Assembly: GCA_947628165.1 (NCBI GenBank)
Contig: CANQYV010000004.1
Location: forward strand, 1 to 57,743
Direction: 5' to 3'
DNA: 57,743 bases
Source: an uncultured Clostridia bacterium
GTDB taxonomy: Bacteria > Bacillota > Clostridia > Oscillospirales > CAG-272
Position numbers and translations under genes: made by a program. The notes below the pieces were generated by a model that was given only the letters and a program-made list of their open reading frames with translations, searched no databases and was not told the origin of the DNA. This document shows, piece by piece, positions 36,896 to 56,419 of this stretch (position 1 is its first letter; every line of letters starts with the position of its first letter).

Positions 36896-36914
36896 TTTCT
36901 TTATTGCGCCGTGT

Positions 36915-37679: not shown

Positions 37680-37876
37680 TTTCCGTATCTCCGTTGGGGA
37701 ATTTTTTTGACACGATTATGATACCATAAATTTCCATCAATATCAAGAACGCGCCAAATAAAAATTTCCACAAACATTGCCCGCCCGATTTGGATGTTTT
37801 TACAAAAGGTGAACGCGCAAACGGACGCATGAAAGAGAGAATGCTCGGATGCCGGCGAATGTGAGCGAAAAGCGTA

Positions 37877-37916
37877 AAAACCGCCCGACACTCGCGTGTG
37901 CCGGGCGGTTTTCATA
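37877..37916 (-). terminator. Terminator of ThyX-like gene
   Basis: AAACCGCCCGacactcgcgtgtgCCGGGCGGTTTT. Confidence 0.75.
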
Positions 37917-37931
37917 TCATGAAAAGGGGAG

Positions 37932-38552: not shown

Positions 38553-38711
38553 ACGGCACCTCGAAAAAATTATTACCTTTATTATAAACGCAGATGAGCG
38601 CGAAGTCAACATTTTTATATTTTCGGCAGGCGGGGTTACGTCTGGGTGAATAAAAAAAGAAATACGGGCAAAAATAAGCTTGCCAAGTAAAAAAAGGAGA
38701 AAAACTACATT

Positions 38712-39446
38712 ATGAACAGCAAAAAAGCTGAAAACAGACTCGTATACGCGGCGCTCATTCTCGTTTTGACCGTGCTTGCGGCGCTTGTCATCGTGACGGG
38801 CATAGCGAGCAGGCGCGAGAGCAGAAAAGAGGAAGACGACACCACGTCGGGCAGCGTGCTCGGCGGCCGCGAGACGGCGGAGCATGACCCCGCAAGCAGA
38901 TTCCCGACGACACAGAAGCCGAACAAAAACGACGAGACGAAGCCTCCGGTGACGGATCCTCCGACGACGACGGCTCCTGCCGAGGACGTCGTAACTCCTT
39001 CGGAAACTCCGAAGTTTGCGTCTCCGTCAGACGGAGCCGTGTCAAAGGGGCACAGCGAGACGGCGCTCGTCTATTCGATGACGATGAACGATTACAGGAC
39101 CCACACGGGAGTCGACATCGCCTCATATGAGGGGGCGGAGGTCAGGTCGGTCGCCGACGGAGTCGTTGCCGACGTGTGGGAGGACCCTATGTGGGGCTGG
39201 TGCGTATCGATAGACCATGAGGGCGACGCCGAGAGCATATATAAAAACCTCTCCCGCGAGTCCGCGGAGTCGCTCGAGGAGGGCGAGACGGTGCTTGCCG
39301 GCGAGGTCATCGGAAGCGTCGGTGACTCGGCGCTCTGCGAGATAGCGGATGAGCCGCACCTCCACTTTGAGCTCAAGCTGTCGGGAGCATACGTCGACCC
39401 CGAGGAATATATAGAATTTGCAGCCGAAGACGTTTTCGCCGAATAA
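38712..39446 (+). CDS. M23 family (LytM/SpoIIQ-like) peptidase, membrane anchored
   Basis: N-terminal TM; RTHTGVDIAS and EPHLHFELK M23 motifs; AAAGGAG RBS. Confidence 0.85.
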   Translation: MNSKKAENRLVYAALILVLTVLAALVIVTGIASRRESRKEEDDTTSGSVLGGRETAEHDPASRFPTTQKPNKNDETKPPVTDPPTTTAPAEDVVTPSETPKFASPSDGAVSKGHSETALVYSMTMNDYRTHTGVDIASYEGAEVRSVADGVVADVWEDPMWGWCVSIDHEGDAESIYKNLSRESAESLEEGETVLAGEVIGSVGDSALCEIADEPHLHFELKLSGAYVDPEEYIEFAAEDVFAE

Positions 39447-39483
39447 AGTCCGCGGGGAGATTTTTCTCCCCGCGGCTTTTTGT
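39447..39483 (+). terminator. Terminator
   Basis: GTCCGCGGGGAGATTTTTCTCCCCGCGGCTTTTT. Confidence 0.85.
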
Positions 39484-39535
39484 AGATAGGTAAAATGACG
39501 GCGGACAGTACAGCCGTGCTTTTGTCAGCTGCATC

Positions 39536-40084
39536 TTAAATTGCGTCAGCCAAATCCGCCGCTTTTTTGCAGCCGTCGGTCTTATCGATATCACCGACAT
39601 TCAACACGCCGGGGATCATGACTTCGCCCACCATAGTCCATTTGTTCAGAGCGCACATACGCTCCATCGGGATACGGACGCCGTCCATAACGGACATATC
39701 ATCTTCTTCGCAGCAGGTTATAAGCGCGCATTCCTTGCCCGAAATATCCTTGCTGCCCACTACGAGAGAGAAAATGCGGTCTATTACGCTTTTGATTTGC
39801 GCCGGAATTGAATACCAATAAACAGGCATAGTGAATACAATAGCGTCGGAGTCGAGAATAGCCGGAGCAATCGTATTAAAATCGTCATCAAAGGTGCAGG
39901 CTTTCCCGGTGGAATAGCAGGTTTCACAGGCGTGACAGCCTCCTATTTTTTTAAAAGCCGCATCGAAACGCGCGACCGTATGTCCTTTCGCTTCCGCCGC
40001 CTTTATAAAAGCATCTGTCATAGCAAAGCTGTTTCCGTTCTTTCGTGGACTGCCGGTTATAACGACGATTTTTTTGCTCATAAT
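39536..40084 (-). CDS. Flavodoxin-like NAD(P)H-dependent FMN reductase
   Basis: KKIVVITGSPRKNGNSFAMTDAF; FTMPVYWYSIPAQIKSVIDR; probable start MSKKIVV. Confidence 0.87.
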   Translation of the reverse strand: MMSKKIVVITGSPRKNGNSFAMTDAFIKAAEAKGHTVARFDAAFKKIGGCHACETCYSTGKACTFDDDFNTIAPAILDSDAIVFTMPVYWYSIPAQIKSVIDRIFSLVVGSKDISGKECALITCCEEDDMSVMDGVRIPMERMCALNKWTMVGEVMIPGVLNVGDIDKTDGCKKAADLADAI

Positions 40085-40108
40085 GAATACCTCCAAATGT
40101 TTGCGGGA

Positions 40109-40153
40109 TTGACTTTCGTCATATTCACTACTATAATTATACTGTGAATATGA
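40109..40153. promoter_or_regulatory. Overlapping divergent promoters sharing TATAATTATA inside a large palindrome (HxlR operator candidate)
   Basis: Arms TCATATTCAC (40119-40128) / GTGAATATGA (40144-40153); plus-strand TTGACT-17-TATAAT (40132-40137). Confidence 0.75.
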
Positions 40154-40209
40154 AAATAAACAAGTACGCACATTCAAGTGCGATACTTACCAAAAGGAAA
40201 GCGTAAGAT

Positions 40210-40545
40210 ATGAATATCGAATGTATTCGGAATGCAAAATTAGAGGACACCGGTTTTCATTACACGATGTCCCTGATACAGGGAAAGTACAAGATGTTTA
40301 TACTCTATGCTTTGGCATGGTTTGAGGTCGTGCGCTTCAATGAGATGAAGAAATTTATCGGCAGCATCTCATATAAAACGCTAAGCTCTACATTAAAAGA
40401 GTTGGAGGCAGACGGCTTGGTTCACCGTGAGGAATATCCGCAAATTCCGCCGAAGGTAGAGTACAGCCTGACCGAACGCGGCAAATCTCTGATGCCTATT
40501 CTGGATCAGATGTGTACTTGGGGAGAAGACCATAGGAATAAGTAA
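40210..40545 (+). CDS. HxlR family transcriptional regulator
   Basis: Winged-helix FNEMKKFIGSISYKTLSSTLKELEADGLVHREEYPQIPPKVEYSLTERG. Confidence 0.93.
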   Translation: MNIECIRNAKLEDTGFHYTMSLIQGKYKMFILYALAWFEVVRFNEMKKFIGSISYKTLSSTLKELEADGLVHREEYPQIPPKVEYSLTERGKSLMPILDQMCTWGEDHRNK

Positions 40546-40595
40546 GCCGTTATTCCGGCTTTCCGTTCGCGGCGTTTCGTAAGAAACACCGCGTT

Positions 40596-41747
40596 TTACT
40601 GCGTGTTATATTCGGAGATGAGTTCGTCGGCGAGGCCTTCGACATATAACAGCTCGCCGCGTTCGCGGATGCGGGCGGGGGGAACGTTTGATATCGGGAA
40701 GTTTTCGCCTATCCTGTTGATGAGCCGAGTGTGCTCCGAGGCGGCGCGGATGCCGCAGAGCGGGGATTCGAGGTCGCCGCGTATCATGGCGGCGGCGAGG
40801 TGCAGCTTTCGCTCAGGGAAGACGAACGGGTCGCCGTAGTTGCGCGTTCTGCCGTCGTCTGTCACGCCTATGATGCGGCCTTTCGTGTACGCGCCACAGT
40901 CGGCAACGGCGGCGGGGGGTTCGTCCTGAGAAAACGTGACGTGCCCGTGTGCGAACTTATAGTAAAACATCGGGTTGACCGTCACGTCCGTTGTGTGTGA
41001 CGCGACAAAGCGCGCACGCGCGCCGCCCTCAAGTGTACAGCTTATGACGGCGGTGTCGAAGTTCTCGATGTCGTTGACGCGGTAAAGGCGCGCGTCGACG
41101 TCTGTGACGCGGCGCGACCTGTCGACCTCGCCGCCCGTGACGTAAAGCATATTGTGAAGATAGTGGGCGGCGGCGTTGTTCGCGACGCTGTCGTATATGA
41201 GCGAGCCGTCCTTTGCGTGTATCCTGCCTGCCCAGCCTGTGCCGCGCCCGAAATAATTCCTGTCGCGCGGCCACAAAACGAGCGTTTTCAATAGCTCCGG
41301 CTCGCCGTAGACCCCGGCGGAGACGTCTGCCTTGAGCGCCTGTATCGCCGCGCTGTGCGACCACTGATATCCTATTGAGACGCGGTGTCCCGACGCTTTC
41401 TCGGCGTCGATGAGACGGTCAATGTCGCGCGCGTCGCCGCAGAGCGGCTTTTCGCAGAGGACGTCGGCGCCGTGGTTCAGGGCGGTTATTATATTTTCGG
41501 TGTGGAACTGTATCGGGGTGGAGATAACGACGAGCTCGGCTTTGTGTTCGGCAAAAAAGTCGTCGAGCGAGGCATACGGCTCGCCGCAGACGGCGCGCAC
41601 GTCATCAAGCCTGCGGCACGCGCCGGGGTACGGGTCGACCGTGCCGACGAGATTGAAAAACGGCGCGTTTTCCGGCTTTAGCACCTCGTTTACATAGAGA
41701 GAGCCGTATCCTCCGATACCGACGAGAACTGTATTTATGCATCTCAT
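40596..41747 (-). CDS. Gfo/Idh/MocA family oxidoreductase
   Basis: VLVGIGGYGSLYV Rossmann motif; DVLCEKPLCGDARDIDRLI (EKP). Confidence 0.9.
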   Translation of the reverse strand: MRCINTVLVGIGGYGSLYVNEVLKPENAPFFNLVGTVDPYPGACRRLDDVRAVCGEPYASLDDFFAEHKAELVVISTPIQFHTENIITALNHGADVLCEKPLCGDARDIDRLIDAEKASGHRVSIGYQWSHSAAIQALKADVSAGVYGEPELLKTLVLWPRDRNYFGRGTGWAGRIHAKDGSLIYDSVANNAAAHYLHNMLYVTGGEVDRSRRVTDVDARLYRVNDIENFDTAVISCTLEGGARARFVASHTTDVTVNPMFYYKFAHGHVTFSQDEPPAAVADCGAYTKGRIIGVTDDGRTRNYGDPFVFPERKLHLAAAMIRGDLESPLCGIRAASEHTRLINRIGENFPISNVPPARIRERGELLYVEGLADELISEYNTQ

Positions 41748-41936
41748 TTTGGTTCGCCTTTCAGGAAAGTTTCGTTTGCGTTCTCACGGTAAACAGTATA
41801 GTCTCAAAAGGCGAAAAAATCAACCCGTCAGCAAAAAAGAGCAAAGAAGGCGGGGGAAAAAGAAGATTGTCTCCGCTTTGCGCGTAAAGCACAAAGCGCG
41901 CAGTTATTTGAGGAACAAATTTATATAAAGTGTGGG

Positions 41937-41964
41937 TTGCAAAAAAAAATCAATTTAGTATAAT
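41937..41964 (+). promoter_or_regulatory. Promoter TTGCAA-16-TATAAT upstream of small ORF
   Basis: TTGCAA 41937-41942; TATAAT 41959-41964; followed by GC-rich hairpin around GGCGATCGCTTGCC. Confidence 0.6.
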
Positions 41965-42028
41965 AAGGGTGACTGGGGGGAGGCGATCGCTTGCCCCGAG
42001 CCAAATCCGAAAAGGAGGGCACTATTGT

Positions 42029-42316
42029 ATGCTTAAAAGAGAGGTTCAGATGCATGACGTCGATATCGCAGAATTTATCCACGCGCTCGACGGATGCGAA
42101 GGTGACGTTTATCTTGAGACGGTTGACGGCGACTGCATCAATCTGAGGTCGCGTCTCTCACAGCTGCTCGGTATCGCCGAGATAATCAACGGAGGTCTTG
42201 TGACCAACGCTAAGCTCCGCTGCGAGAATCCCGAGGATGAGTCGAAGCTGTTCCGCTTCTCCCTCTTCCGCGAGATCCCCACAAAAGACAGCGAAGGCGA
42301 GGAAAAGTCCGAATAA
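42029..42316 (+). CDS. Small conserved protein, possibly HPr-like fold
   Basis: AAGGAGGGC upstream of ATG 42029; HDVDIAEFIHALDGCEGDVYLETVDGDCINLRSRLSQLLGIAEI. Confidence 0.5.
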   Translation: MLKREVQMHDVDIAEFIHALDGCEGDVYLETVDGDCINLRSRLSQLLGIAEIINGGLVTNAKLRCENPEDESKLFRFSLFREIPTKDSEGEEKSE

Positions 42317-42329
42317 CTCCGATACCGAA

Positions 42330-42362
42330 ATCGGGAAAGCACGACGACCGTCGTGCTTTTTT
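42330..42362 (+). terminator. Terminator
   Basis: AAAGCACGACGACCGTCGTGCTTTTTT. Confidence 0.85.
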
Positions 42363-42394
42363 CTTTCAAAAAAGAATATGCACAACATTTTGCG

Positions 42395-42430
42395 TTCGCG
42401 CTTGAATTCGTGCGCGAAATATGGTAAAAT
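42395..42430 (+). promoter_or_regulatory. GH43 promoter TTGAAT-17-TAAAAT with palindrome flanking the -35
   Basis: TTCGCGC (42395-42401)/GCGCGAA (42412-42418); TTGAAT 42402-42407; TAAAAT 42425-42430. Confidence 0.55.
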
Positions 42431-42460
42431 AAACTGAAGCTCAATAATGCGGAGGAACGT

Positions 42461-44032
42461 ATGAAAAACAGCGAAATAAAGCGGAAAAACAACCCCATAA
42501 TCTGGGCGGATATTCCCGATGTCGACGTTATCCGCGTCGGCGACACCTACTATATGATAAGTACGACGATGCATCTGATGCCGGGAGGCGTCATCTTCCG
42601 CTCGTATGACCTTGTGAACTGGGAGGTCGCGACGTATATTTACGATGTGCTCGAAAATACGCCGGGCGCGCGCCTCGAGGACATGCGCGGCATATACGGC
42701 GCTGGCATGTGGGCGGCGACGCTGCGCTATCACAACGGACGGTTTTACGTCATCTTCGTCGCGAACGACACTCGCGCGGAGAATATGTCGTTCCTCTACA
42801 CGTCGGAAAAAATCGAGGGCCCGTGGGAAAAGAGAAAGATCAAGGGCTTTTATCACGACTGCTCGCTCTATTTCGAGGGGGACCGCCCGTTTATCGTCTC
42901 CGGCTGCGGGCAGGTGCGCCTCGTAGAAATGAGGCCCGACCTCTCGGAACCGCTCCCCGGCGGTATCGACAAGATAATCATTTCCGACCGCGAGTATGTC
43001 AGCCTCCCGTCCGAGGGCTCACATATGTATAAGATAAACGGAAAATATTATATCTTCATGATACACTGGCTTCGCTACGGCACAAAACGCCGCGTCGAGG
43101 TCTGCTATATGTCGGACAAGATCGACGGGCCGTATGTCGGCGGAAATATTCTCGACGACGACATGGGATATCACAACGCCGGCGTCGCGCAGGGCGGCAT
43201 TGTCGACACGCCCGACGGCGACTGGTACGCAATGCTGTTCCAGGACCACGGCGCTGTCGGAAGGATACCGGTGCTCGTACCCATGACATGGGACAGCGAG
43301 TCTTCGTTCCCCGTATTCGGAGAGGGCGGGCGCGTTCCGCGCACGGTCGAGGTCAGGTCAACGCGTCCCGACTATGAATATGAACCCATAATCACGTCGG
43401 ACGGCTTCGACTATGCGGAAGGCGAGCAGCTCCACAACGCATGGCAGTGGAACCATATTCCCGACGATTCGCTTTGGAGCACGACGGAGCGCCCCGGCTG
43501 GCTCCGTCTCAGAACGGGGAGCACGGCGCCGAACGTCACGCTTGCGAAGAATTCTCTCGGGCAGCGCACGGCGGGTCCCGTATGCGAAGGCTCTGTCACG
43601 CTCGATGTTTCGGGCCTCGGAGACGGCGACTTCGCGGGGCTCTGCGCGATGCAGAGCAATTACGGATTTATAGCCGTCACGCGCGAGGGAGACGATAAGT
43701 ATATAGTTATGCTGAAACGCAGCGAGCAGGAGCTCGACGCGCACGGCAGGCCGATTCCCGGCGATAAGCTCCCCGGCATCGAATACGGCAGGGTGAAGCT
43801 CGAGGGCAACGTCGTTAAGCTTAAGATAAGGTGCGATTTCCGCGAAAACGTCGATTTGGCGGAGTTCTTCTACGAGGACGGCGGCGAGTGGCACAGGCTC
43901 GGAGATGAGCTGCATATGCTCTACACTCTCGACCACTTCATGGGGTACCGCTTCGAGCTCTGCTGCTTCTCGACAAAAACGCCCGGCGGATACGCGGATT
44001 TTGACGACTACACGATAAATGTCATCGAGTGA
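42461..44032 (+). CDS. Glycoside hydrolase family 43 protein (beta-xylosidase/arabinofuranosidase-like)
   Basis: NPIIWADIPDVDVIRVGDTYYMISTT, ...HDCSLYFEGDRPFIVSG, C-terminal beta-sandwich. Confidence 0.9.
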   Translation: MKNSEIKRKNNPIIWADIPDVDVIRVGDTYYMISTTMHLMPGGVIFRSYDLVNWEVATYIYDVLENTPGARLEDMRGIYGAGMWAATLRYHNGRFYVIFVANDTRAENMSFLYTSEKIEGPWEKRKIKGFYHDCSLYFEGDRPFIVSGCGQVRLVEMRPDLSEPLPGGIDKIIISDREYVSLPSEGSHMYKINGKYYIFMIHWLRYGTKRRVEVCYMSDKIDGPYVGGNILDDDMGYHNAGVAQGGIVDTPDGDWYAMLFQDHGAVGRIPVLVPMTWDSESSFPVFGEGGRVPRTVEVRSTRPDYEYEPIITSDGFDYAEGEQLHNAWQWNHIPDDSLWSTTERPGWLRLRTGSTAPNVTLAKNSLGQRTAGPVCEGSVTLDVSGLGDGDFAGLCAMQSNYGFIAVTREGDDKYIVMLKRSEQELDAHGRPIPGDKLPGIEYGRVKLEGNVVKLKIRCDFRENVDLAEFFYEDGGEWHRLGDELHMLYTLDHFMGYRFELCCFSTKTPGGYADFDDYTINVIE

Positions 44033-44056
44033 CGGCGAGTCCGAGAGGGTAGACAC

Positions 44057-45196
44057 ATGACAGATACGCGGCGCAAATGGCTGCGCGCCATGCTTAAGAT
44101 AGTGACGCCGGTGCTCGAGTCTGCCTCGCGCGGCGAGCTCAGATCGAGGATGCCGGTCTATGCGCGTCCCGGCGTGACGGACAGAGAAGAGTATACATAT
44201 CTTGAGGCTTTGGGGAGAGTCGTTTGCGGGATTTCGCCTTGGCTCGGAACCAAAGCCGAGGACGGGGAGGAAGAAGAACTCCGCCTCAGATATGCGGAGA
44301 TGACGAGGCAGGCGATACGATTTGCCGTTATGCCCGGCTCGCCGGATATGATGAATTTCTCGCGCGGCGGGCAGCCTATCGTGGATGCCGCGTTTCTGGC
44401 GGAGGGTATCCTCCGCGCGAAGGCGGAGCTTTGGGATGCGCTCGAGGGGGATGTGAAGCGAGAGCTTTTGGCTCGGATGAGAGAGACGCGGACGCGGAAG
44501 CCTTATGCGAGCAACTGGCTTTTGTTCGCCGCGATGACAGAGACTCTGCTTTACGAGGCGGGGGCGTCCGATTGGGACCCGATGCGCGTCGATTATGCGC
44601 TGAGGCAGCATATGCAGTGGTATCTCGGAGACGGCTTTTACGGCGACGGCCCCGAATTTCATCTTGATTATTACAACAGCTATGTCATAAACCCTATGCT
44701 CGTCGATATCATCCGCACCGTCGGAGATGTTTTCCCGGATTGGGCGGAAATGAAGGACGAGATAATAAGGCGGGCGTCAAGATTCGCGTCCGCAGAAGAA
44801 ACGATGATATGCCCGGACGGGACGTATCCCGTGCTCGGGCGCTCTTCCGCGTACCGCTTCGGCGCGTTCCATGCGCTCTGTCAGGCGGCGCTGCTCGGCT
44901 ATCTGCCGGAAAGCGTTGATCCGGCGGCGGTGCGGTGCGCGCTCACCGCGGTGATAGAAAAGGTCATGTCGTACTCCGGAATCTTTGACGGGGAGGGCTG
45001 GCTCACTATCGGCGTCTGCGGGGAGCAGCCGGAGATAGGAGAGGGCTATATTTCAACGGGGAGCCTGTATCTTTGTACGGCAGTGTTCCTTCCGCTCGGG
45101 CTGCCGGATTCGGCTCCGTTCTGGTCGTTGCCGGACGCGGCGTGGACGCAGCGCCGTATATGGGCGGGCGACGTGTCTGCCGTGACGAGACATTAG
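44057..45196 (+). CDS. DUF2264-like protein
   Basis: YTYLEALGRVVCGISPWLG; SNWLLFAAMTE; QWYLGDGFYGDGPEFHLDYYNSYVI. Confidence 0.85.
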   Translation: MTDTRRKWLRAMLKIVTPVLESASRGELRSRMPVYARPGVTDREEYTYLEALGRVVCGISPWLGTKAEDGEEEELRLRYAEMTRQAIRFAVMPGSPDMMNFSRGGQPIVDAAFLAEGILRAKAELWDALEGDVKRELLARMRETRTRKPYASNWLLFAAMTETLLYEAGASDWDPMRVDYALRQHMQWYLGDGFYGDGPEFHLDYYNSYVINPMLVDIIRTVGDVFPDWAEMKDEIIRRASRFASAEETMICPDGTYPVLGRSSAYRFGAFHALCQAALLGYLPESVDPAAVRCALTAVIEKVMSYSGIFDGEGWLTIGVCGEQPEIGEGYISTGSLYLCTAVFLPLGLPDSAPFWSLPDAAWTQRRIWAGDVSAVTRH

Positions 45197-45244
45197 AAAA
45201 ATACCCGCGGAGGCTTCCGTTCGGAAGCCTCCGCGGGTATTCTT
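45197..45244. terminator. Bidirectional terminator
   Basis: AATACCCGCGGAGGCTTCCGTTCGGAAGCCTCCGCGGGTATT long perfect hairpin. Confidence 0.9.
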
Positions 45245-45790
45245 TCATTCGCCCGAGATACGTTTGTATTCGGTGATTATTTTTTCCGCCGTTTTCTCCG
45301 GCGTACTGTTCGTGCTGTCTATGACAAGGTCATAATTATCGGGGTCGGTGTAATCGACGCCGTATATCGACTTGAACCGTTCGCGTTCGAGCTCCTGCCG
45401 CCGTATGAGCGCCGCCTTTGCCTCATCGACCGTCCGGTACGACTCGACATCGCCGCGTTCCGCGGCGAATACGCGGCGCGCTGCCTCGTCTGCGTCGACG
45501 TCGATGAATACGCGGAACGCATTCTCGGCGAAATGCCACGCCATTCGCGAGTCAAAAATTATGTGGTCGCGCGTTCTTGAAAGCTCCGTTACGGCGTCGT
45601 CTATTACATGGTCGAACGCGGCGTCTGTCATCATTCGCTGATTGAGCTCAAGGGTCGTTATTCCCATCTCCGCCGCCGCGTGACGCTGTACGCTGCCCGT
45701 CGAGTATATATCGTAACCGAGCGTTTCCGATAATATTCCGGCAACGGTCGATTTGCCGCTCCCGAGTCTGCCCGTTATAGCAATGTGCAT
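45245..45790 (-). CDS. Cytidylate-kinase-like P-loop kinase
   Basis: ITGRLGSGKSTVAGILSETLGYDIYSTGSVQR; DSRMAW; R-rich lid. Confidence 0.75.
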   Translation of the reverse strand: MHIAITGRLGSGKSTVAGILSETLGYDIYSTGSVQRHAAAEMGITTLELNQRMMTDAAFDHVIDDAVTELSRTRDHIIFDSRMAWHFAENAFRVFIDVDADEAARRVFAAERGDVESYRTVDEAKAALIRRQELERERFKSIYGVDYTDPDNYDLVIDSTNSTPEKTAEKIITEYKRISGE

Positions 45791-45948
45791 GATAAAAAAG
45801 CCCCCGGCATTTCGCTTTGTTGCGGAACAATTATATCATGAGAAAGGGAAATTGTAAAGTAAAAAAGAAATTCATGTGTCTGAAATGAATTAATAAACGG
45901 GCCGATTTTCAGAAGCAGGAAAATATTGTTGTCAAGAGGGCAGGGAGG

Positions 45949-46194
45949 TCATTCATCTATGCCGAGGAGCCATGCGGCGGACACTTTCAAAATCTCCGCA
46001 AGCACCCGTATCTCATAATCGGGGACAAACCGTGTCCCGATCTCGATCCGTGAAATGCTGTCTCTTTCGATTATAACGCCGTTTACCTGCAGACGTGCCG
46101 CGAGATCCGCCTGCGACATTCTCTGCATGACACGAGCCTGCCGCACCCGCTCGCCGCATATGTTTTTTCGACCGTTGAAGTCGTATATTTTCAT
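45949..46194 (-). CDS. XRE family helix-turn-helix regulator
   Basis: VRQARVMQRMSQADLAARLQVNGVIIERDSISRIEIGTRFVPDYEIRVLAEIL; GGAAGGA RBS. Confidence 0.88.
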   Translation of the reverse strand: MKIYDFNGRKNICGERVRQARVMQRMSQADLAARLQVNGVIIERDSISRIEIGTRFVPDYEIRVLAEILKVSAAWLLGIDE

Positions 46195-46218
46195 TTTTAT
46201 CGTTCCTTCCAAAAAAAT

Positions 46219-46279
46219 ATGTTAAAGTTCAGCAACAATCTTGACTTTAACACATTATTCTGCTACAATTGTGTTAAAG
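46219..46279 (+). promoter_or_regulatory. Promoter TTGACT-17-TACAAT of polysaccharide locus flanked by repeated GTTAAAG operator half-sites
   Basis: -35 46241-46246, -10 46264-46269; CTTTAACACA 46245-46254 / TGTGTTAAAG 46270-46279 perfect inverted repeat; extra ATGTTAAAG 46219-46227. Confidence 0.75.
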
Positions 46280-46366
46280 ATACGCTTTAGGCAAAAATGT
46301 TAGAAGAGTTATCGTTTTGAAGCAATCATTTCCTTCAGACTTTCGCTTTTTTTCGCTCAAAAGCTC

Positions 46367-46395
46367 TTGATTGTTTAGAAAAGTGATGATATAAT
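46367..46395 (+). promoter_or_regulatory. Second promoter of the polysaccharide locus TTGATT-17-TATAAT
   Basis: TTGATT 46367-46372; TATAAT 46390-46395. Confidence 0.65.
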
Positions 46396-46637
46396 ATGTT
46401 GCAGTGTGTATTTTGATATATTAAAGTTTGTTTGATTGAAAAAATAACATGAAGTTCATTTTTTAGGTAAAATCAGAGAATATCGAGTGCTGAACTCAGC
46501 TTCCGAATATGTGTTGTTTTTATTTATTATCGTGGCTCACAGGCTTCGGCTGACAAAAGATTATTGCCGCGGCAGGAGAGTATAGAAGGATCTGTCCGAA
46601 AGAAGGGCACGTCGGAAACGGCGAGGACAGTGTTTTT

Positions 46638-47190
46638 GTGAACGAGACAACAGCATATGTTAAGGACATGCCTTCCCTTGAGGAGGAGAGCGCAGAGACA
46701 AATGAAACGGTCAATGTTATACTTCCTTTCAAGAAAGATAAGGAATATTACGTCGAGACGCTGAAAAACGTCCCTAGAAAACCTGTTTATTCTTTCTTTA
46801 AGCGCTTTTTTGATATTGTTTTTTCCGTGTTTGCCCTTTTGATTTGCACCATTCCGATGGCAATTATAGCTGTTATAATAAAGCTGAGTTCTCCAGGCCC
46901 CGTCTTTTTCAGACAGGAGAGGCTCGGCTTGAACGGAAAAAAATTTAAAATAGTAAAATTCAGAACAATGTGCGTCGACGCGGAAGCAAAAGGCGCTCAG
47001 TGGTCGCAGGGAGACGATGACCCGCGAATATTTGATCGTGGATGCATTTTTGAGAAAAGTACGTCTTGATGAACTTCCTCAGTTTGGAGCTATCCTCTGC
47101 GGGAAAATGAGTCTTGTCAGCCTAATACCCGAATGCGAGTGTTTTTACAATGAATTTAAAACCATACATACACGTCTCGAGAAAAATAGG
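46638..47190 (+). pseudogene. Undecaprenyl-phosphate sugar-1-phosphate transferase, frameshifted copy 1
   Basis: VYSFFKRFFDIVFSVFALLICTIPMAIIAVIIKLSSPGPVFFRQERLGLNGKKFKIVKFRTM then stop; continues in another frame as AFLRKVRLDELPQFGAILCGKMSLVSLIPE. Confidence 0.88.
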
Positions 47191-47193
47191 TAG

Positions 47194-47400
47194 TATGTTG
47201 AAACGTTGAAAAACGTCCTGAAAAAACCGGTTTATTCGTTTATTAGTAAACGCTTTTTTGACATTTTTTATGATTGCCATTTTAGTTTGCGCTATCCCGA
47301 TGACAGTAAAAGCGTTTATAAAAAAGATGTTCCCTTGGTCTGTTTTTTAAACAGAAGCTTAGTTTGAACTGGAAGGAACTTAAGAAAACGCAGACGAAAG
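47194..47400 (+). pseudogene. Second, more decayed sugar transferase remnant (copy 2)
   Basis: YVETLKNVLKKPVYSFISKRFFDIF then, after a frameshift, MIAILVCAIPMTVKAFIKKMFPWSVF*; parallels copy 1. Confidence 0.8.
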
Positions 47401-47494
47401 CTGTAAACAATAGACGCGTTTGCCGAACTGGTGATGCGGAAAGCAAGCGCATATAAGAGAATATCTTTACAAAATTATTTTGAAATGAGAAATA

Positions 47495-48307
47495 ATGGTG
47501 AACAAGTTGAGCGAAGAAATGAGCGAAACATTACTTTTGAAGCGAGAGGTAGACGTCAAAGACGCGCCCGGAATTGTGATGAGCCCGGCTGTAAAACAGC
47601 CCGAACCGCAGACGGAAGTCTATTCAGGCTCGGCGTCGAAAGTTAAAAGCAGACCGATATATGCATTTGTAAAGTGTCTTGCGGACTTTGTGCTGTCGCT
47701 CGCAGCGAGTGTTGTCCTTATAATCCCGATGGCGGTGATTGCATTAATTATCTACATTAAAGACCCCGGCAACCCGTTCTACATGCAAACCCGCGTCGGA
47801 AAGAGCGGAAAGCCTCTCAGAATCCTGAAATTCAGGACGATGCGAAATGGTGCGGACAAGCTGGAGAATATGCTCACGTCAGAGCAGCTAGAAGAATACA
47901 AGCGCGAGTACAAGCTCGACGACGACCCGAGGTTGATCGGCTACAGGAAGCCGGGCTACGGCAAGACTTGTTTTGGCGCAAGACTAAGGCAGCTTTCGAT
48001 TGACGAGCTCCCGCAAATTGTATGGAATGTTTGCTTGAAAGGGAATATGTCCTTGGTCGGACCGCGACCGATCCTCCGAGAAGAGTTGGAAAGATATTAC
48101 ACTCCCGAGCAGCAAAAAGCGTTGTTGTCGGTGAAACCGGGACTGACCGGCTACTGGCAGGCGTATGCGAGGAACAACGCGAAGTACGACACTGGTGAAC
48201 GGCAGAAAATGGAGCTTTATTACATAGGACGGCGGTCTTTCTTAATGGATATAAAAATTATTTTAGCTACCGTATCAGCTGTAGTAAAGAAAAATGGAGC
48301 CAAGTAA
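47495..48307 (+). CDS. Bacterial sugar transferase (initiating polyprenyl-phosphate glycosyl-1-phosphate transferase), intact
   Basis: PGNPFYMQTRVGKSGKPLRILKFRTM; LRQLSIDELPQIVWNVCLKGNMSLVGPRPIL; KPGLTGYWQ. Confidence 0.93.
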   Translation: MVNKLSEEMSETLLLKREVDVKDAPGIVMSPAVKQPEPQTEVYSGSASKVKSRPIYAFVKCLADFVLSLAASVVLIIPMAVIALIIYIKDPGNPFYMQTRVGKSGKPLRILKFRTMRNGADKLENMLTSEQLEEYKREYKLDDDPRLIGYRKPGYGKTCFGARLRQLSIDELPQIVWNVCLKGNMSLVGPRPILREELERYYTPEQQKALLSVKPGLTGYWQAYARNNAKYDTGERQKMELYYIGRRSFLMDIKIILATVSAVVKKNGAK

Positions 48308-48309
48308 TT

Positions 48310-48865
48310 ATGGATAGGAATACTTTAATAAAAATCAGGTGTTATTTGATTTTAAATCCGATTAAAAGAACAAAGTATCTTATTAAAAAGGGCGTATTCA
48401 ATTCTGTTGGAAAAAACTTTTATTTTTGTCCGAGAAAAATTCCGCAGGATCCGATGCTGATCAGATTTGGCGATAATGTCAAAGTAGCAACAGATGTGTT
48501 TTTTGTCACACATGACATTATTCATGATATGGTAAATGATATTGAGCCGCCTTTTTCAGACAATAAACTGAGCAAAGAATTCGGATGTATCGAAGTTAAG
48601 AATAATGTTTTTATTGGGGCAGGTTCTATAATTTTGCCTAACGTTACAATTGGCCCTGATGTAATAGTTGCTGCTGGCAGCGTAGTGACAAAATCATTTT
48701 CGGGGGGGGGTAATAATTGGCGGCAACCCTGCACGGGTGATTGGCAGTGTTGAAGATTTGATAAAGAAACGTATAGCGCAAAATCTTGAAAATCCACATT
48801 ATAACGATAGGTTCTTTGAAGCAAGACGTCTTTGGGCAATGTGGGATAATAAGGAAATTGAATAG
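48310..48865 (+). pseudogene. Hexapeptide (O-)acetyltransferase, currently out of frame at a G9 tract (phase-OFF or disrupted)
   Basis: Frame 48310-48753 ends shortly after SFSGGG; with G8 it reads SFSGGVIIGGNPARVIGSVEDLIKKRIAQNLENPHYNDRFFEARRLWAMWDNKEIE*. Confidence 0.85.
48702..48710 (+). repeat. Homopolymeric G9 tract (candidate contingency/phase-variation repeat)
   Basis: cGGGGGGGGGtaataa read directly; inside coding sequence. Confidence 0.9.
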
Positions 48866-48902
48866 TTTAGGCACATCTGAGCACTGCAGCGAGGGAGGAG
48901 AG

Positions 48903-50075
48903 ATTACGAACAAAGGCAAGCTTAGAAACAGAATTGCTTATATATTAAAACATAATAAGGCGTTGTTGACTATATATAAAACGACAATGAGTGCAGCAAT
49001 CAAAACGCTAGGGATATTTGTCAAGCGTGATGACTTTCTCGTTCTGTTTGTTTCATATAGCGGAAAAAAGTTTGATGACAGCCCACTGGTGTTGTTTGAA
49101 GCCATGAAAGCCGATCAACGATTCAAAGATTTTCATTTTGTATGGGCTTTTGAAGAACCTACAAAGTTTAAAGTTGAAAATGCAGATACAGTAAAAATAG
49201 ATTCTTTAAAATATTTTATAACAGCTTTAAAGGCAAAAATATGGATAACAAATGTAAATATAGAACGCGGTTTGAGTTTCAAAAAGGAAGGGACAATTCT
49301 TTTAAATTCTTGGCATGGGACAGGCCCAAAAAAGAACGGAAATGCCATTAAATCGAGAAATGACTACGATTTTTCAAACGTAGATATTTTTTGTTGCGAC
49401 GGCGAATACACAAAGAATCACTTTGTAAAGTGGTTTAATGCCCGAGAATCCTCTATGCTGTGGTGCGGAAGACCGCGCGAAGATGAACTTTTTGAATTTA
49501 CGGATGCAGATACGATTAGAATCAGAAAAAAGCTGAATATTCCCGATGAAAAGCAGGTTCTATTGTATATGCCTACATGGAGAGACTATGAGAATCAGGA
49601 TGCTGACTACTCTTTATGGGAAAAGAGGCTAGGCGATAAATACGTTCTTTTGTGCAGAACTCACCACTTTGATATGAAAGTGAAAAGCGTTGAAAATTCA
49701 AACGGATTTTTCATTGATGTTACAACATATCCCAATGTCAATGAACTGTATTGGGTGGCTGATATATTGATATCAGATTATTCCAGCGCTTTTTTTGACT
49801 TTGGCCTTTTAGGAAAACCGATGTTTTGTTTTGCAAACGACTACGATAAATTTGCCTCCGTTACAGGGCTGTTTATAGATTTAAGATCTGAGTTTCCAAA
49901 CGGTATAATGGAATCTGATGAGGATTTGATTTCTTCCATATGCAAAATGGACTATGACAGAGAGTGTGAGAAGATTAAACAATATGTGGCAAAATATGTA
50001 TCGCATCCCATGAACGCAACACAAGCATGTTTAGATAGAATTTATGAATTACTGTATAGAACCAATGACTTATGA
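48903..50075 (+). CDS. CDP-glycerol glycerophosphotransferase family protein (TagB/TagF-like)
   Basis: LFVSYSGKKFDDSPLVLFEAM; LNSWHGTGPKKNG; PTWRDYENQD; DILISDYSSAFFDFGLLGKPMFCF; start uncertain (track start 48786). Confidence 0.85.
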   Translation: MTNKGKLRNRIAYILKHNKALLTIYKTTMSAAIKTLGIFVKRDDFLVLFVSYSGKKFDDSPLVLFEAMKADQRFKDFHFVWAFEEPTKFKVENADTVKIDSLKYFITALKAKIWITNVNIERGLSFKKEGTILLNSWHGTGPKKNGNAIKSRNDYDFSNVDIFCCDGEYTKNHFVKWFNARESSMLWCGRPREDELFEFTDADTIRIRKKLNIPDEKQVLLYMPTWRDYENQDADYSLWEKRLGDKYVLLCRTHHFDMKVKSVENSNGFFIDVTTYPNVNELYWVADILISDYSSAFFDFGLLGKPMFCFANDYDKFASVTGLFIDLRSEFPNGIMESDEDLISSICKMDYDRECEKIKQYVAKYVSHPMNATQACLDRIYELLYRTNDL

Positions 50076-50327
50076 TGTGGGGGTAATTCTCTCGCTAATC
50101 AGTGTTGGCACATGTATTGATTTTGGTTTGACCAGGCAATAACACACAAATGTTTTTACAGAGAAATGGTGTGTGCCGAATTCAATCCGGAACTCTATCT
50201 TGACTCGCCGCGAGCATCTTTTAGATGGAAAATATGATGTGCGAAAATAATATGGTGGATGATAAACGATATATACGATCACCTCACAGACTCATACAGG
50301 ATAACAATAAAAAGACGGTGAACTCAT

Positions 50328-50786
50328 ATGAAAATTGCAATAGGCAACGACAGACAAGGGCTGCTTTTGAAAAGAGATTTGCTGATTTGGCTGAGTGAAA
50401 AGGGGCACAACTTAACGGATGTCGGAACAAATGAAGATGGTCCATGCGATTACCCGATATTTGCAGAGAGCGTTGCAAGCCTTGTATCAAACGGCACATG
50501 CGAAAGAGGGATTGTTATCTGTGCCACGGGCGTCGGCATATCCATTGCAGCAAATAAAGTTGCCGGAATTCGCTGCGGTTTGGCGTATGATGATGAAGTG
50601 ACAAAACTTATGAGGCAGCACAATGACGTAAACATGATTGCTTTCGGTCAAAGGTTTATGTCTTTGGAAGATGTCAAGAGAAGACTGGAAATTTTTCTGA
50701 ATACCGATTTTTTGGGAGGATATCATCAGGAAAGAATAACTCTTATCTCTCAAATAGAAGAGAAGCAGAGAGGCATGAAGCAGTGA
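50328..50786 (+). CDS. RpiB/LacA/LacB family sugar-phosphate isomerase
   Basis: KIAIGNDRQGLLLKRDL; CATGVGISIAANKVAGIRCGLAYD; MRQHNDVNMIAFGQR. Confidence 0.92.
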   Translation: MKIAIGNDRQGLLLKRDLLIWLSEKGHNLTDVGTNEDGPCDYPIFAESVASLVSNGTCERGIVICATGVGISIAANKVAGIRCGLAYDDEVTKLMRQHNDVNMIAFGQRFMSLEDVKRRLEIFLNTDFLGGYHQERITLISQIEEKQRGMKQ

Positions 50787-51496
50787 AGGTAAGAGTTGTA
50801 ATACTTGCCGGAGGAACCGGCAGTAGAATGAAAACAGATTTGCCTAAGCAATTTATTGAAGTAGACGGCGTTCCGGTGATTGTAAATACAATAAACAACT
50901 TTCAGAATAACAATCGCATTGATAGCATTACGGTAGTATGTCTGAAAGATTGGAGTGGCTATCTACAGGAGCTTATTGCAAAATATCGGTTGGACAAGGT
51001 TATCAGCATTGTAGCGGGCGGAGATACGGGACACGATTCCGCAAAAAACGGAGTTATGTCTTTAGAAAAAACGATGGATGAAGATGATATTGTTGTAATT
51101 CATGACGCAGCGCGCCCGCTTATTTCTCAGGTGATTATCAATGATATGTTAGACACGGCAATTAAATACGGAAACGCCTGCACTGCAATACCTATTCACG
51201 ACACTATTATTGTCACTGACGATCAGCAGTCGGGCAATACACAAATTGAGCGTAATAAAATAATGAGAGTGCAAACTCCGCAGGCATACAGATTCGGTCT
51301 CATCAAAGCACTTTATCAGCGAGCCGATGAAGAAAACAAACACGATTTTATATATGCCAATACCATGGCTATTACATACGGGGTTAGAATATATTTTTCC
51401 ACCGGATCTGATTGCAATATAAAGCTGACCACAAAGGAAGATTTGGCTTATTACAAGGCGATGAAACAATTCAGCGAGGAGGAACGCAGCAAATGA
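50783..51496 (+). CDS. IspD/TarI-like cytidylyltransferase
   Basis: VVILAGGTGSRMKTDLPKQFIEVDGVPVIV; VVIHDAARPLIS; MRVQTPQAYRF; GTGA overlap with rpiB-like gene. Confidence 0.9.
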   Translation: MKVRVVILAGGTGSRMKTDLPKQFIEVDGVPVIVNTINNFQNNNRIDSITVVCLKDWSGYLQELIAKYRLDKVISIVAGGDTGHDSAKNGVMSLEKTMDEDDIVVIHDAARPLISQVIINDMLDTAIKYGNACTAIPIHDTIIVTDDQQSGNTQIERNKIMRVQTPQAYRFGLIKALYQRADEENKHDFIYANTMAITYGVRIYFSTGSDCNIKLTTKEDLAYYKAMKQFSEEERSK

Positions 51497-52524
51497 ACCT
51501 TTCGCCTATCGAAGCTAACGAGTTTAACAGATATACGGAACGGTATTCTTTTTTGCCATTTATAAAGAATAAAACTTTTCTTATTACCGGCAGTAACGGC
51601 ATGATCGGCTCCGGGATAATTAAGTGGCTTCTTTATGAAAATGCGGCTCACGGCGCTGACTGCCGTATTTTTGCGTCTACAAGACATCCTCAGAACAGGC
51701 CTGATTATCTTGAATCGGACGATAATGTTGTCATGTGTCAGTTTGGAATGGAAAATCAGGATGTCGAAACGGAAGAGATTGATTATATTATTCATACTGC
51801 TGCACCGACAGGGAGAAAGTATTTTATTACAAAGCCGGTGGAAACTCTTCGGGTCATAGTAGACGAAACCGAAAAAATGCTGGATTTGGCCAAAGAAAAA
51901 AACGCGCAAATGGTTTACTTATCGTCCGTAGAAGCCTACGGCATTCCGAACACAGATGCTCCAATTAAGGAGGACTATGTTGGCGCCGTGGACAGTTTGG
52001 ATATAAGAAACGGATATCCGATGGGAAAGAAAGCTGCCGAATTTTTATGTTATGCGATGAGCAAAGAGTATGGCGTAAATGTTTGTATTGTCAGGCTTTC
52101 ATCTATACAAGGATTGCTTCAGCCTTATGATGAGCAAAGGATATTCAACGAAATTCTCAGATGTGTAATTGAAGGTAAAGATTTGATAATGAAATCCGAC
52201 GGGCTCAGCAAAAAGTCTATTGTATATTCTCTTGACGCTATCAGCGGTATTTTTACTGCATTGTTCAGAGGTGAGTCCGGCGAGGCGTACAATATCACAG
52301 ACCCGGCTACATATATGACGGTGCGCGATTTGGCATCGTATGTTTTTGAAAAGTTTAATCCTGATGTACATATTGTTTTCGATATAGAAGATACGTCGAA
52401 AACCGGGTATCTGCCGCATTTGGAATTTACTCAGGACATAATGAAGTTGCAAAAGCTGGGCTGGGGGCCGATTTCAAATTTGGAACATATATACAAAACA
52501 GATTTATCGAGATTCGGAGAATAA
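51493..52524 (+). CDS. NAD-dependent epimerase/dehydratase (extended SDR)
   Basis: FLITGSNGMIGSGIIKWLL; YLSSVEAYG; YPMGKKAAE (YxxxK); ATGA overlap. Confidence 0.9.
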   Translation: MNLSPIEANEFNRYTERYSFLPFIKNKTFLITGSNGMIGSGIIKWLLYENAAHGADCRIFASTRHPQNRPDYLESDDNVVMCQFGMENQDVETEEIDYIIHTAAPTGRKYFITKPVETLRVIVDETEKMLDLAKEKNAQMVYLSSVEAYGIPNTDAPIKEDYVGAVDSLDIRNGYPMGKKAAEFLCYAMSKEYGVNVCIVRLSSIQGLLQPYDEQRIFNEILRCVIEGKDLIMKSDGLSKKSIVYSLDAISGIFTALFRGESGEAYNITDPATYMTVRDLASYVFEKFNPDVHIVFDIEDTSKTGYLPHLEFTQDIMKLQKLGWGPISNLEHIYKTDLSRFGE

Positions 52525-52527
52525 GAA

Positions 52528-54315
52528 ATGATATTGGATAAAGTCACGTCTCCCGCAGATTTAAAGAAGCTTCCTGCCGATAAACTTCCGGAGCTGGCTC
52601 GGGAAATCAGAGATGTTCTTATAAATAAAGCAAGTAACTTTGGCGGGCATTTGGGATCAAACCTTGGAGTTGTTGAGCTGACGATTGCACTTCACTATGT
52701 GTTTGATTCGCCAAAGGATAAAATTGTCTTTGATGTTTCTCATCAGTGCTATGTCCATAAAATACTGACCGGCAGAAAAGCAGCCTTTCTTGACGAAAAG
52801 CTTTATCGTAGCGTATCGGGCTATACAAATCCAAAGGAAAGCGAGCACGATATGTTCAATGTCGGACATACGTCCACTTCCATAAGCCTGGCGTGCGGTC
52901 TTGCAAAAGGCAGAGATATCTGCAAAAGAACCGAAAATATAATTGCAGTTATCGGCGACGCAGCTTTAGACGGAGGAGAGGCGTTCGAGGCTTTAAACTC
53001 TGCCGTTGAGGTGGGCGGAGGCCTTATTGTCGTTGTTAATGATAACGACATGTCAATACCGGAAAACCACGGAGCGCTTTGCAAACATCTTGCCGAACTT
53101 CGTAAGAATGAGGGCAAATGCGAGAACAACTTCTTTAAAGCGCTCGGATTTGATTATTATTTTGTAAAAGACGGACACAATATCGCAGAGTTGATTGAGG
53201 CTTTTACAAAGGTCAAGGATATTACACACCCAGTGATTGTTCATTGCGTTACGAAAAAAGGAAAAGGATATAGTTTTGCAGAAGATAATTCCGAAAAATG
53301 GCATTGGGCGCATCCCTTCAATATTGAAACAGGTGAGTTTTATAAAGGAACGGCGGTTCCCAAGGAAAACTACGGTTCCATTGTCGGGCAATATTTGATG
53401 CAAAAAATCAAAGATGATCCAAAGATCGTGGCTATGACGGCTTCTGTGCCAGCGTACATAGGGTTTAATTCCGAAAGAAGAAAGGAAGCCGGTAGTCAGT
53501 ATGTTGATGTCGGAATAGCAGAGGCTAACGGCGTTACCATGGCGGCAGCGATTGCAAAAAGCGGCGGAAAGCCGGTGTTTGTAACGGGAAGCTCGTTTTA
53601 TCAGCGAGCCTATGACCAAATAGAGCAGGAAATGTGTATAAACAGATGTGCTGCCACGATGCTTGTTGCATTTTCGGGTATTAACGGACATGACAGTGAC
53701 GCTCATGCAGGTTTATACGACATGGCTTTGTTAGGTAATATCCCCGGTTTGATTTATCTCGCTCCGTCCAATAAGCAAGAATATTTGGCGATGCTGGAGT
53801 GGAGCATTGAGCAAAATGAAAGCCCGGTAGCAATCCGAATCCCTTGGAACGGTGTTCATTATACAAATGAGCCTGTTCCGCCGGAGTATTCCAAAACGAA
53901 ATACATGGTCAGAAAGAGCGGGTCGCAAGTTGCAATTCTCGGTCTGGGAAGCTTTTATCAGCTGGCAGAGCAGGTTGCGGAGCTGATTAAAAAAGAAATG
54001 AAGATTGAACCAACGCTTATTGACCCGATGTTTATTACAGGTGTGGACGAGCCATTACTGGAAGATTTAAAATCCAATCACAAGCTGATAGTCACTTTGG
54101 AGGACGGCATCGTTTTAGGAGGCTTTGGCGCAAGAATTTCGCAATTTTACGGCGTCGATGATATGAAAGTGATAAATTGCGGCTTCCACACAGAGGTGCC
54201 GACACAGTTTACGGTTGAAGAAATGATGGAGAAAAACGGTCTTATGCCGGAGCAAATACTGCAAAGAGTTAAAGACATAGTCGGCGGCAATGAATCAACT
54301 GAGGAGAAGAAATGA
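52528..54315 (+). CDS. DXS-like thiamine-diphosphate-dependent synthase/transketolase
   Basis: GGHLGSNLGVVELTIALHYVF; FDVSHQCYVHKILTGR; VIGDAALDGGEAFEALNSAVEVGGGLIVVVNDNDMSI; DVGIAEANGVTMAAAIA; FYQRAYDQIEQEM. Confidence 0.9.
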   Translation: MILDKVTSPADLKKLPADKLPELAREIRDVLINKASNFGGHLGSNLGVVELTIALHYVFDSPKDKIVFDVSHQCYVHKILTGRKAAFLDEKLYRSVSGYTNPKESEHDMFNVGHTSTSISLACGLAKGRDICKRTENIIAVIGDAALDGGEAFEALNSAVEVGGGLIVVVNDNDMSIPENHGALCKHLAELRKNEGKCENNFFKALGFDYYFVKDGHNIAELIEAFTKVKDITHPVIVHCVTKKGKGYSFAEDNSEKWHWAHPFNIETGEFYKGTAVPKENYGSIVGQYLMQKIKDDPKIVAMTASVPAYIGFNSERRKEAGSQYVDVGIAEANGVTMAAAIAKSGGKPVFVTGSSFYQRAYDQIEQEMCINRCAATMLVAFSGINGHDSDAHAGLYDMALLGNIPGLIYLAPSNKQEYLAMLEWSIEQNESPVAIRIPWNGVHYTNEPVPPEYSKTKYMVRKSGSQVAILGLGSFYQLAEQVAELIKKEMKIEPTLIDPMFITGVDEPLLEDLKSNHKLIVTLEDGIVLGGFGARISQFYGVDDMKVINCGFHTEVPTQFTVEEMMEKNGLMPEQILQRVKDIVGGNESTEEKK

Positions 54316-55289
54316 ATCCTTTAATCAGTTTAGTAATACCTGTCTACAACGTCGAAAAATATCTTGACAAGTGCATGAGTTCCGTCCTTGCGCAAACCTA
54401 TGATAACTTTGAGGTCATACTCGTCGACGACGGCTCGACCGACAACAGCGGCAAGATGTGCGATGAGTATGCGGAAAAGTATGGCAGAGTAACTGTTTAC
54501 CATAAGCCGAACGGTGGTCTTTCCGACGCGAGAAATTTCGGTGTGGAGCATTGCAATGCCGACTTGGTTTCATTTATTGATTCAGACGACTATGTAACCG
54601 AGGATTATCTTGAATACCTCTGGTATTTGATGAAGAAGTACAATGTGGATATTGCTTGCGCAACGGCAAAGAGAATTATCGAAACGGCGAAAATAAATAG
54701 GGACGATAACGACAGCGAGATACTTTTAGACTGCTCGGAGGCGATCAAAAGAATATGTTATACATCATGTAGTGCGTGTACGCGTCTTTACAAAAGACAA
54801 TTTCTTCTCACTCATCCGTATCCCAAAGGAAGATTATACGAGGATCTTGCGACCACATGTAAAATTTACGGAAGCAGTTCAAAAAGCGTATTCGGAGGGA
54901 AGACAATATACTATTGGGTTCAGCGGCAAGGAGGAATAACACATAGCGAGATTGATAAAAAACAGTATGATTTGTTTTGGTCTGCTGATGAACAGTTGAA
55001 TTATATTTCCGAAAACTTTCCGGCGTCGGAGAGTGCGTCACATGCAAGATGCGTTATGGCCGCATGTCATTTTGTTACACGACTCTTTAGCAGCAAAAGC
55101 AAGAACAGAAAGCAGCATTTTAAATACGCAAGAAGTTATGTTAAAAAGCATTTGAAATATATTGTACGAGACAGAAATACTCCAAAAAATATTATTATTT
55201 CCGGATTGACTATTTATATGGGCTATACAGCTTCAAAAATTCTATGGCCGGTCAGACAGAAAATTAGAAAGGCTATCAGGGGCATTTAA
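54312..55289 (+). CDS. Glycosyltransferase family 2
   Basis: SLVIPVYNVEKYLDKCMSSVLAQTYDNFEVILVDDGSTDNS; DSDD; ATGA overlap. Confidence 0.95.
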   Translation: MNPLISLVIPVYNVEKYLDKCMSSVLAQTYDNFEVILVDDGSTDNSGKMCDEYAEKYGRVTVYHKPNGGLSDARNFGVEHCNADLVSFIDSDDYVTEDYLEYLWYLMKKYNVDIACATAKRIIETAKINRDDNDSEILLDCSEAIKRICYTSCSACTRLYKRQFLLTHPYPKGRLYEDLATTCKIYGSSSKSVFGGKTIYYWVQRQGGITHSEIDKKQYDLFWSADEQLNYISENFPASESASHARCVMAACHFVTRLFSSKSKNRKQHFKYARSYVKKHLKYIVRDRNTPKNIIISGLTIYMGYTASKILWPVRQKIRKAIRGI

Positions 55290-55293
55290 CAAT

Positions 55294-56364
55294 ATGTGGA
55301 TATATTTCACTGCCACGTCGCTGTCGATTATGATAACATGGCTTGCTGTAAAAGCGCATAATGACAACAGGATAGCTAATTACAACAAAAATGTTATAAG
55401 CTCTGTTTTTGCGGTAATGTCATGTCTACCGCTTTTAATTGTTATGGCATTTAGAAAAGGGGTCGGCACAGACTATTGGAGCTATCAAATATGGTTTAGC
55501 TCAAGTAATCGGGGAGACTTGGAAATAGGATTTAAAACGTTGAACATTATTTTAAATTTTGTTTTTGGCGACCCTCAAAGTATTTATATTGTTTGTGCAG
55601 TTATAATATGCGGATTCTATTTTTATATGATTTACAAAGAGTCGGTATCTCCGATGTACAGTGTACTGCTTTTTGTAATATCGAAAGATTATTTTATAGC
55701 TATGAACGGCATGAGACAATATGTGGCTGGGACTATAGCTTTGATGGCTTTTCCGTATTTTAAAAAAAGAGATTGGAAGAAGTCACTACTTATTATTTTT
55801 ATTGCATCTTTATTTCATAAATCGGCTTTTATCTTTGTACTTTTGTATATTATTATTGACATTGACATAAATCCCGCTTGGGCAGTGGGTATATTTGCGG
55901 GATTAGTATTGTTTTCAAATACAATAAAGAGCGTTGTCTTCCCGATATTGATTAAAATTGGATTTTATTCTAAATATTTCTCAGAAACATCTCATTACAA
56001 CAACTCTGAAGGAGAGTTTAACTGGCATACCATACTGATATTTATGTGCTTTTTCATTCTGATTGCGTATGAATATAAAAAGGCCAAAGCAAATCAGAAT
56101 CTGAAATTAGTTTACAGTGCGGTTTTGATAAGTTTGTTTATTGCTTCAACAGGTTCTATTCTGCCTCTTAATGCGCATCGTTTGACGTGGTATATGAATT
56201 CAGTTCTTGTACTGTATATACCGGAGGTTACACGGTCTTTGAGCAACAAAAGGCTGAGAATGATCGTAGACACCATGATTATATTTGCATTTACGATGAC
56301 TACTTTAATTGACATCTTAAATGGCAATCAAGGAGTTCTTCCGTATAAAGCATTTTGGGATTAG
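55294..56364 (+). CDS. EpsG-like polysaccharide polymerase membrane protein
   Basis: Multi-TM; FRKGVGTDYWSYQIWF; YFIAMNGMRQYVAGTIAL. Confidence 0.85.
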   Translation: MWIYFTATSLSIMITWLAVKAHNDNRIANYNKNVISSVFAVMSCLPLLIVMAFRKGVGTDYWSYQIWFSSSNRGDLEIGFKTLNIILNFVFGDPQSIYIVCAVIICGFYFYMIYKESVSPMYSVLLFVISKDYFIAMNGMRQYVAGTIALMAFPYFKKRDWKKSLLIIFIASLFHKSAFIFVLLYIIIDIDINPAWAVGIFAGLVLFSNTIKSVVFPILIKIGFYSKYFSETSHYNNSEGEFNWHTILIFMCFFILIAYEYKKAKANQNLKLVYSAVLISLFIASTGSILPLNAHRLTWYMNSVLVLYIPEVTRSLSNKRLRMIVDTMIIFAFTMTTLIDILNGNQGVLPYKAFWD

Positions 56365-56419
56365 CTTTTAATTTATAAAACAAACACGCGTAAAAACAAA
56401 GGAAGTGTTGGTGAAAAAA

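Follow-up and report, generated by a model that had tools for sequence, protein, structure and literature searches.

What is recorded by a row of three sugar transferase segments, only one of them intact, at the edge of a polysaccharide gene cluster? The question is raised by positions 46638 to 48307 of the window, that is, the whole of contig C4 (57,743 bases) from a 2.2-Mb draft genome (127 contigs, 98% complete), whose sibling genomes and nearest named matches are uncultured gut Clostridia. The segments, here called copies 1, 2 and 3, sit at the left edge of a polysaccharide cluster which reaches the contig end, and no report of this locus was found in a literature search. PF02397, the bacterial sugar transferase family, has the monotopic phosphoglycosyl transferase (PGT) fold, and a PGT initiator is the enzyme placing the first sugar-phosphate on undecaprenyl phosphate. 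An earlier note on this DNA had read the row as three copies of one gene in graded decay, left by serial replacement of the initiator, the gene which chooses the first sugar.

Copy 3 (47495 to 48307, forward strand) is indeed intact, as that note had it, and encodes a WbaP/RfbP-like PGT of 270 amino acids. It matches the PF02397 profile from end to end (positions 1-179 of 179, E = 2e-49, 168 bits where the cut-off is 27) and carries IDELPQ, in which the Asp-Glu catalytic dyad of monotopic PGTs (PMC10519829) is found, together with SLVGPRP, which holds the GPRP motif. It is presumed to be the working initiator of the present cluster. Its catalytic domain is shared with Salmonella WbaP (E = 6e-33 over 207 residues) and with Campylobacter PglC, both of them solved PGTs, but the long N-terminal membrane and linker domains of WbaP are lacking. 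The present cluster extends from 48310 to 57496 on the same strand, the contig ending at 57743, with genes for a hexapeptide acetyltransferase, a CDP-glycerol glycerophosphotransferase-like protein, an RpiB-like isomerase, an IspD/TarI-like cytidylyltransferase, an NAD-dependent epimerase, a DXS/transketolase-like protein, a GT2 enzyme (assigned by eye), an EpsG-like protein and a pyruvyl transferase. The acetyltransferase gene (48310 to ~48850), directly after copy 3, changes frame once, near 48700, with its typical C-terminus (IIGGNPARVIGSVEDLI...) in the next frame, a shift which is either real decay or an assembly indel. Between 50328 and 54315, the isomerase, cytidylyltransferase, epimerase and DXS/transketolase-like genes stand in a row, with the CDP-glycerol-transferase-like gene upstream, a set suggestive of a route to some unusual building block activated with CDP, be it a pentose, a pentitol or a deoxyketose.

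Copy 1 is a pseudogene, its frame being broken and residues invariant among its relatives being lost. Its 5' part (46638 to 47069, forward strand), formerly the first gene of the operon, is a 143-codon open frame of a WcaJ-like PGT, with a GTG start at 46638 behind a Shine-Dalgarno-like GAGGA; the start codon is conserved in G009, the genome of a sister species. The frame shifts near 47030-47045, and the second frame (47044 to 47190, forward strand), which holds FLRKVRLDELPQ...KMSLVSLIPECECFYNEF and ends near 47190, ahead of KPGLTG, keeps the DELPQ catalytic segment and has SLIPECECF at the place where 14 intact relatives have GPRPER, followed in these by ~60 more residues (KPGLTG...GAK). Since the 14 relatives have both, the loss of the motif, already remarked in the earlier note together with the frameshift, and that of the 3' third (the last ~60 codons) are both real. 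The PF02397 profile matches the two pieces, in their different frames, above its cut-off. The first ~135 codons are nearly pristine, one of 23 family-invariant columns being deviant, compared with 8/20 in the tail (p = 0.007).

Copy 2 (~47168 to 47394, forward strand) is also a pseudogene, a shorter and degenerate remnant of the 5' part of a gene of the same subfamily as copy 1, whose final 23 bases its alignment overlaps at the join. It has no start and multiple stops, in every frame. The sequence shared by the two, pointed out at first reading, amounts to clear DNA homology, with 172 of 249 columns identical and a score of 171, where the best of 300 shuffles reached 37. Identity is 69% to copy 1 and about 60% to intact outgroup genes, and the pair could have arisen by an ancient tandem duplication or represent members of one subfamily that came one after the other. 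An extension of the remnant as far as the start of copy 3 was rejected, since nothing alignable past 47394 exceeded the shuffles (p = 0.24). The alignment of all three segments, which the earlier note had suggested, sets copy 3 apart: its DNA similarity to the others is almost nil, with scores of 46 (copy 1) and 25 (copy 2) near the shuffled maxima of 41 and 40, and it belongs to another clade. The row is therefore not made of three copies of one gene, nor are copies 1 and 2 earlier forms of copy 3; and, copies 1 and 2 being of the same subfamily, the row does not demonstrate three successive different initiators. Nor is decay graded along the array, copy 2 being the most decayed member and the front of copy 1 almost untouched.

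In a tree of 109 rows, copy 1 falls with the window's own family of Clostridia (L045) and with L064-L066, and copy 3 with loci of Roseburia and other Lachnospiraceae, the working PGT of G009 lying elsewhere. By profile preference, the copy 1 subfamily is WcaJ-like, and copy 3 and the G009 PGT are WbaP/RfbP-like, all of them below the curated cut-offs (403 for WbaP, TIGR03022; 411 for WcaJ, TIGR03023). Copy 3 scores 193 of 403 for WbaP and 150 of 411 for WcaJ, the front of copy 1 scores 73 and 106, and the intact copy 1 relative in L064 scores 184 and 238, respectively; none of these passes, and the values are a preference only, the tested PGTs being without the long N-terminal region of both models. 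As to a possible change of first sugar, this preference gives a hint: it suggests a passage from a WcaJ-like to a WbaP-like PGT, of the glucose-to-galactose kind.

The left flank of the locus begins with a small nucleotide-kinase-like gene (cmk-like by eye; 45245 to 45790, reverse strand), with 96% amino acid identity in G009; in the nine other members of the genus no PGT adjoins this gene. The left neighbour is an XRE/HTH regulator (45949 to 46212, reverse strand; Pfam HTH_19/HTH_31/HTH_3), divergent from the locus and conserved in G009. Between the regulator gene and the operon stands a 35-bp inverted repeat (CTTTAACACA-N15-TGTGTTAAAG, 46245 to 46279), conserved in G009 too, and a search for its pattern, TTTAACAC-N10-18-GTGTTAAA, returned a single occurrence in the 2.2-Mb genome. 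The repeat is a possible operator, through which the regulator might control its own gene and the operon. A sigma-70-like promoter of the operon (TTGATT-17-TATAAT, 46367 to 46395, forward strand), in a stretch conserved in both species, and a second one (TTGACT-17-TACAAT, 46241 to 46269), lying over the inverted repeat, are both consensus matches only. Among the 11 genus members searched, the leader sequence is confined to the window species and G009; a known structured RNA in it was rejected, the best Rfam hit (E = 0.31) being far under its gathering score. In four related metagenome-assembled genomes (MAGs), a helicase-like protein rich in repeats of the helicase-associated type adjoins the polysaccharide locus (L064 2017-4539, L065 70-2703, L105 49-2955, L024 16247-18769); its gene may usually mark the left boundary of such loci in the family.

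Comparison with the sister species, contig C71 of G009 (like the window genome, a draft assembly), carries most of the argument. The two sequences are collinear, with 92-96% DNA identity, from 36864 to 46670, the shared flank in G009 taking in the kinase-like and XRE regulator genes, the promoter and leader, and copy 1 up to its 33rd base. After a gap of ~214 bp, G009 has a copy 1 remnant with stops (76% identity over 208 bp), and 130 bases past this remnant a different intact PGT heads a cluster without similarity to that of the window. Downstream of copy 1 nothing in common was found between the two; G009 has no equivalent of copy 3, and its own working PGT belongs to another clade. A second PGT of the window genome, on contig C41, was discarded as a donor, since it lies in a conserved locus of its own, of which G009 has the ortholog. 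Exchangeable capsule or exopolysaccharide loci are recognized when related genomes carry unlike clusters beside the same conserved flank, and this is the arrangement found on the left side, the side covered by the comparison, the right junction lying past the contig end (57743).

The two species also differ in the timing of decay. Raw copy 1 differences between them (10/60, 12/62 and 18/61 at codon positions 1, 2 and 3) look near-neutral beside those of the flanking genes (about 0.02, 0.02 and 0.19), and on these counts copy 1 had been taken as already dead in the common ancestor. This view was dropped after polarisation with five intact outgroups, which assigned 4/2/12 substitutions to the window branch and 12/9/7 to the G009 branch (Fisher p = 0.007), over about 200 aligned bases in a partly frameshifted alignment. 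Relaxed selection at positions 1 and 2 is clear in the G009 ortholog and not yet visible on the window branch, where the counts are consistent with a recent loss of copy 1. This indicates that the gene stayed under constraint in the window lineage over most of the period after the split, whereas G009 lost it early, and on this ground the two losses look independent; a gene which worked for so long would also account for its near-pristine front and deviant tail. No killing mutation shared by both species was found, and a common one was rejected, as the indels near 47030-47045 differ in length.

Intact versions of the old gene, which the earlier note had proposed to look for, do exist in related Clostridia: a copy 1-type PGT stands at the head of the polysaccharide genes in L064 and L065, and in L065 a second intact PGT of another clade follows directly downstream. 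Tandem intact pairs are present in L050, L116 and L117 as well, and two intact tandem PGTs are a plausible intermediate of replacement. Broken members are also found, since in L105 (2989-3683, a rabbit-gut MAG) a copy 1-type PGT is interrupted mid-gene by a stop and a missing segment, and in L091 a PGT fragment lies behind an intact PGT. A scan gave at least two PGT matches in 10/121 non-redundant loci, some of them split or fused frames and not two genes; as the 121 were picked for similarity to copy 1, this value is not an estimate of frequency. No strain of the window species was seen to retain an intact old cluster. In L137 (6522-8663, a Solobacterium MAG), a single frame of 714 codons has a WbaP-like protein fused to another PGT domain, which is normal and belongs to the clade closest to copy 3; the PGT domain of the WbaP-like part is degenerate (HLDGLPM for xLDELPQ, VGPKS for VGPRP), a dead and a live PGT thus standing in one chain.

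Taken together, the dead copy 1 ortholog with a different PGT and cluster in G009 and the tandem PGTs of relatives support at least two initiator replacements at this site. The reading preferred here, with a probability of about 80%, is that of the left junction of a variable exopolysaccharide or capsule locus, where the initiator was replaced with its cluster independently in two lineages and the old gene decayed in place. In the common ancestor of the window species and G009, the WcaJ-like PGT would have been the first gene behind the conserved regulator and promoter; each lineage would then independently have had its cluster exchanged, or overlaid, by another with its own PGT, the window genome gaining copy 3, of a clade otherwise present here in Lachnospiraceae and relatives, and G009 gaining a different one. 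The promoter-proximal copy 1, presumably redundant from then on, would have been left behind to decay, in the window by losing its 3' third in a join with the more decayed tandem remnant, copy 2, as well as by a frameshift, and in G009 by losing an internal segment and gaining stops. As regards the serial replacement claimed at first, a different working PGT beside a dead copy 1 is seen in the window and in G009; the repeated swapping of one gene is not supported, since the evidence points to turnover of whole clusters, each working PGT heading an unrelated one. Import of the cluster as a unit is the probable cause.

A local duplication followed by decay could leave a similar picture, a redundant tandem pair having died next to copy 3, which would always have been the partner initiator of a two-PGT cluster, with no cluster replacement. 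The intact tandem pairs in L065, L050, L116 and L117, and the fact that copy 2 is nearer to copy 1 than to outgroups, agree with this. Nevertheless, it is unlikely, given that copy 3 is absent from G009, whose PGT is of another clade and in an unrelated cluster, and that beyond the shared left flank the species have nothing in common downstream of copy 1. The main rival remains an error of the draft assembly: a single gene or a pair of genes, intact in the bacterium, would appear as copies 1 and 2 because indel errors, or a chimeric join between strains, interrupted them in the assembly. The 127 contigs, the nearly pristine front of copy 1 and the frame shift of the acetyltransferase gene, by which indel errors in this stretch are possible, speak for such an error, but no single indel accounts for both the missing end and GPRPE of copy 1 and the stops and missing start of copy 2, the flanking genes align to G009 without indels, and G009, a separate genome, has a dead copy 1 ortholog at the same place; an artefact is accordingly judged quite improbable. 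That copies 1 and 2 are silent donor cassettes, kept to vary copy 3 by recombination, is suggested by partial copies in tandem beside an expressed one and was rejected as scarcely credible, because they share essentially no DNA similarity with copy 3, so that homologous conversion could not work, and because no repeats frame the copies.

Returning to the preferred reading of independent cluster replacement, a more general proposal, advanced here tentatively and with the odds against it, is that the regulator, the promoter and the first ~500 bases behind form a fixed docking site, where one incoming cluster after another, each with its own PGT, would attach inside the resident initiator gene or immediately after it, the 5' stumps left there recording the order of past surface polymers. 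Comparable loci have been described in pathogens. In Acinetobacter baumannii KL8 and KL9, itrA and itrB2 are adjacent and itrB2 was judged a remnant of a past event, its donor sugar no longer being made (PMC3628348). As in the window, two initiating transferases adjoin in a capsule locus, one of them a remnant, but there the remnant is an intact frame of another PGT family (ItrB, ~337 amino acids) (PMC3628348), whereas the window remnants are disrupted genes, belong to PF02397 just as the working PGT does, and are common to the sister species. In Klebsiella K loci, either WbaP or WcaJ initiates each capsule and the type goes with the cluster; each locus has a single initiator, with no relic of the other type reported in that work (PMC5359410). 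Streptococcal cps loci contain fragments of former genes inside or at the edge of the exchanged capsule locus, such as aliB-like pseudogenes and, in S. mitis SK629, a wciB fragment beside wcjH, although these derive from transporter-binding-protein and later-acting glycosyltransferase genes and not from the initiator (PMC5111408).

Capsule cluster exchange leaving relics is therefore already known from pathogens, and the merit of the present case is the comparison between sister species. Gene relics at the edge of a cluster record the surface polymer formerly made by a lineage, in this case one of uncultured gut Clostridia. The same old initiator, dead in two sister species and with unrelated working ones adjoining, provides direct evidence, relative in time, of independent replacement of the surface polymer.
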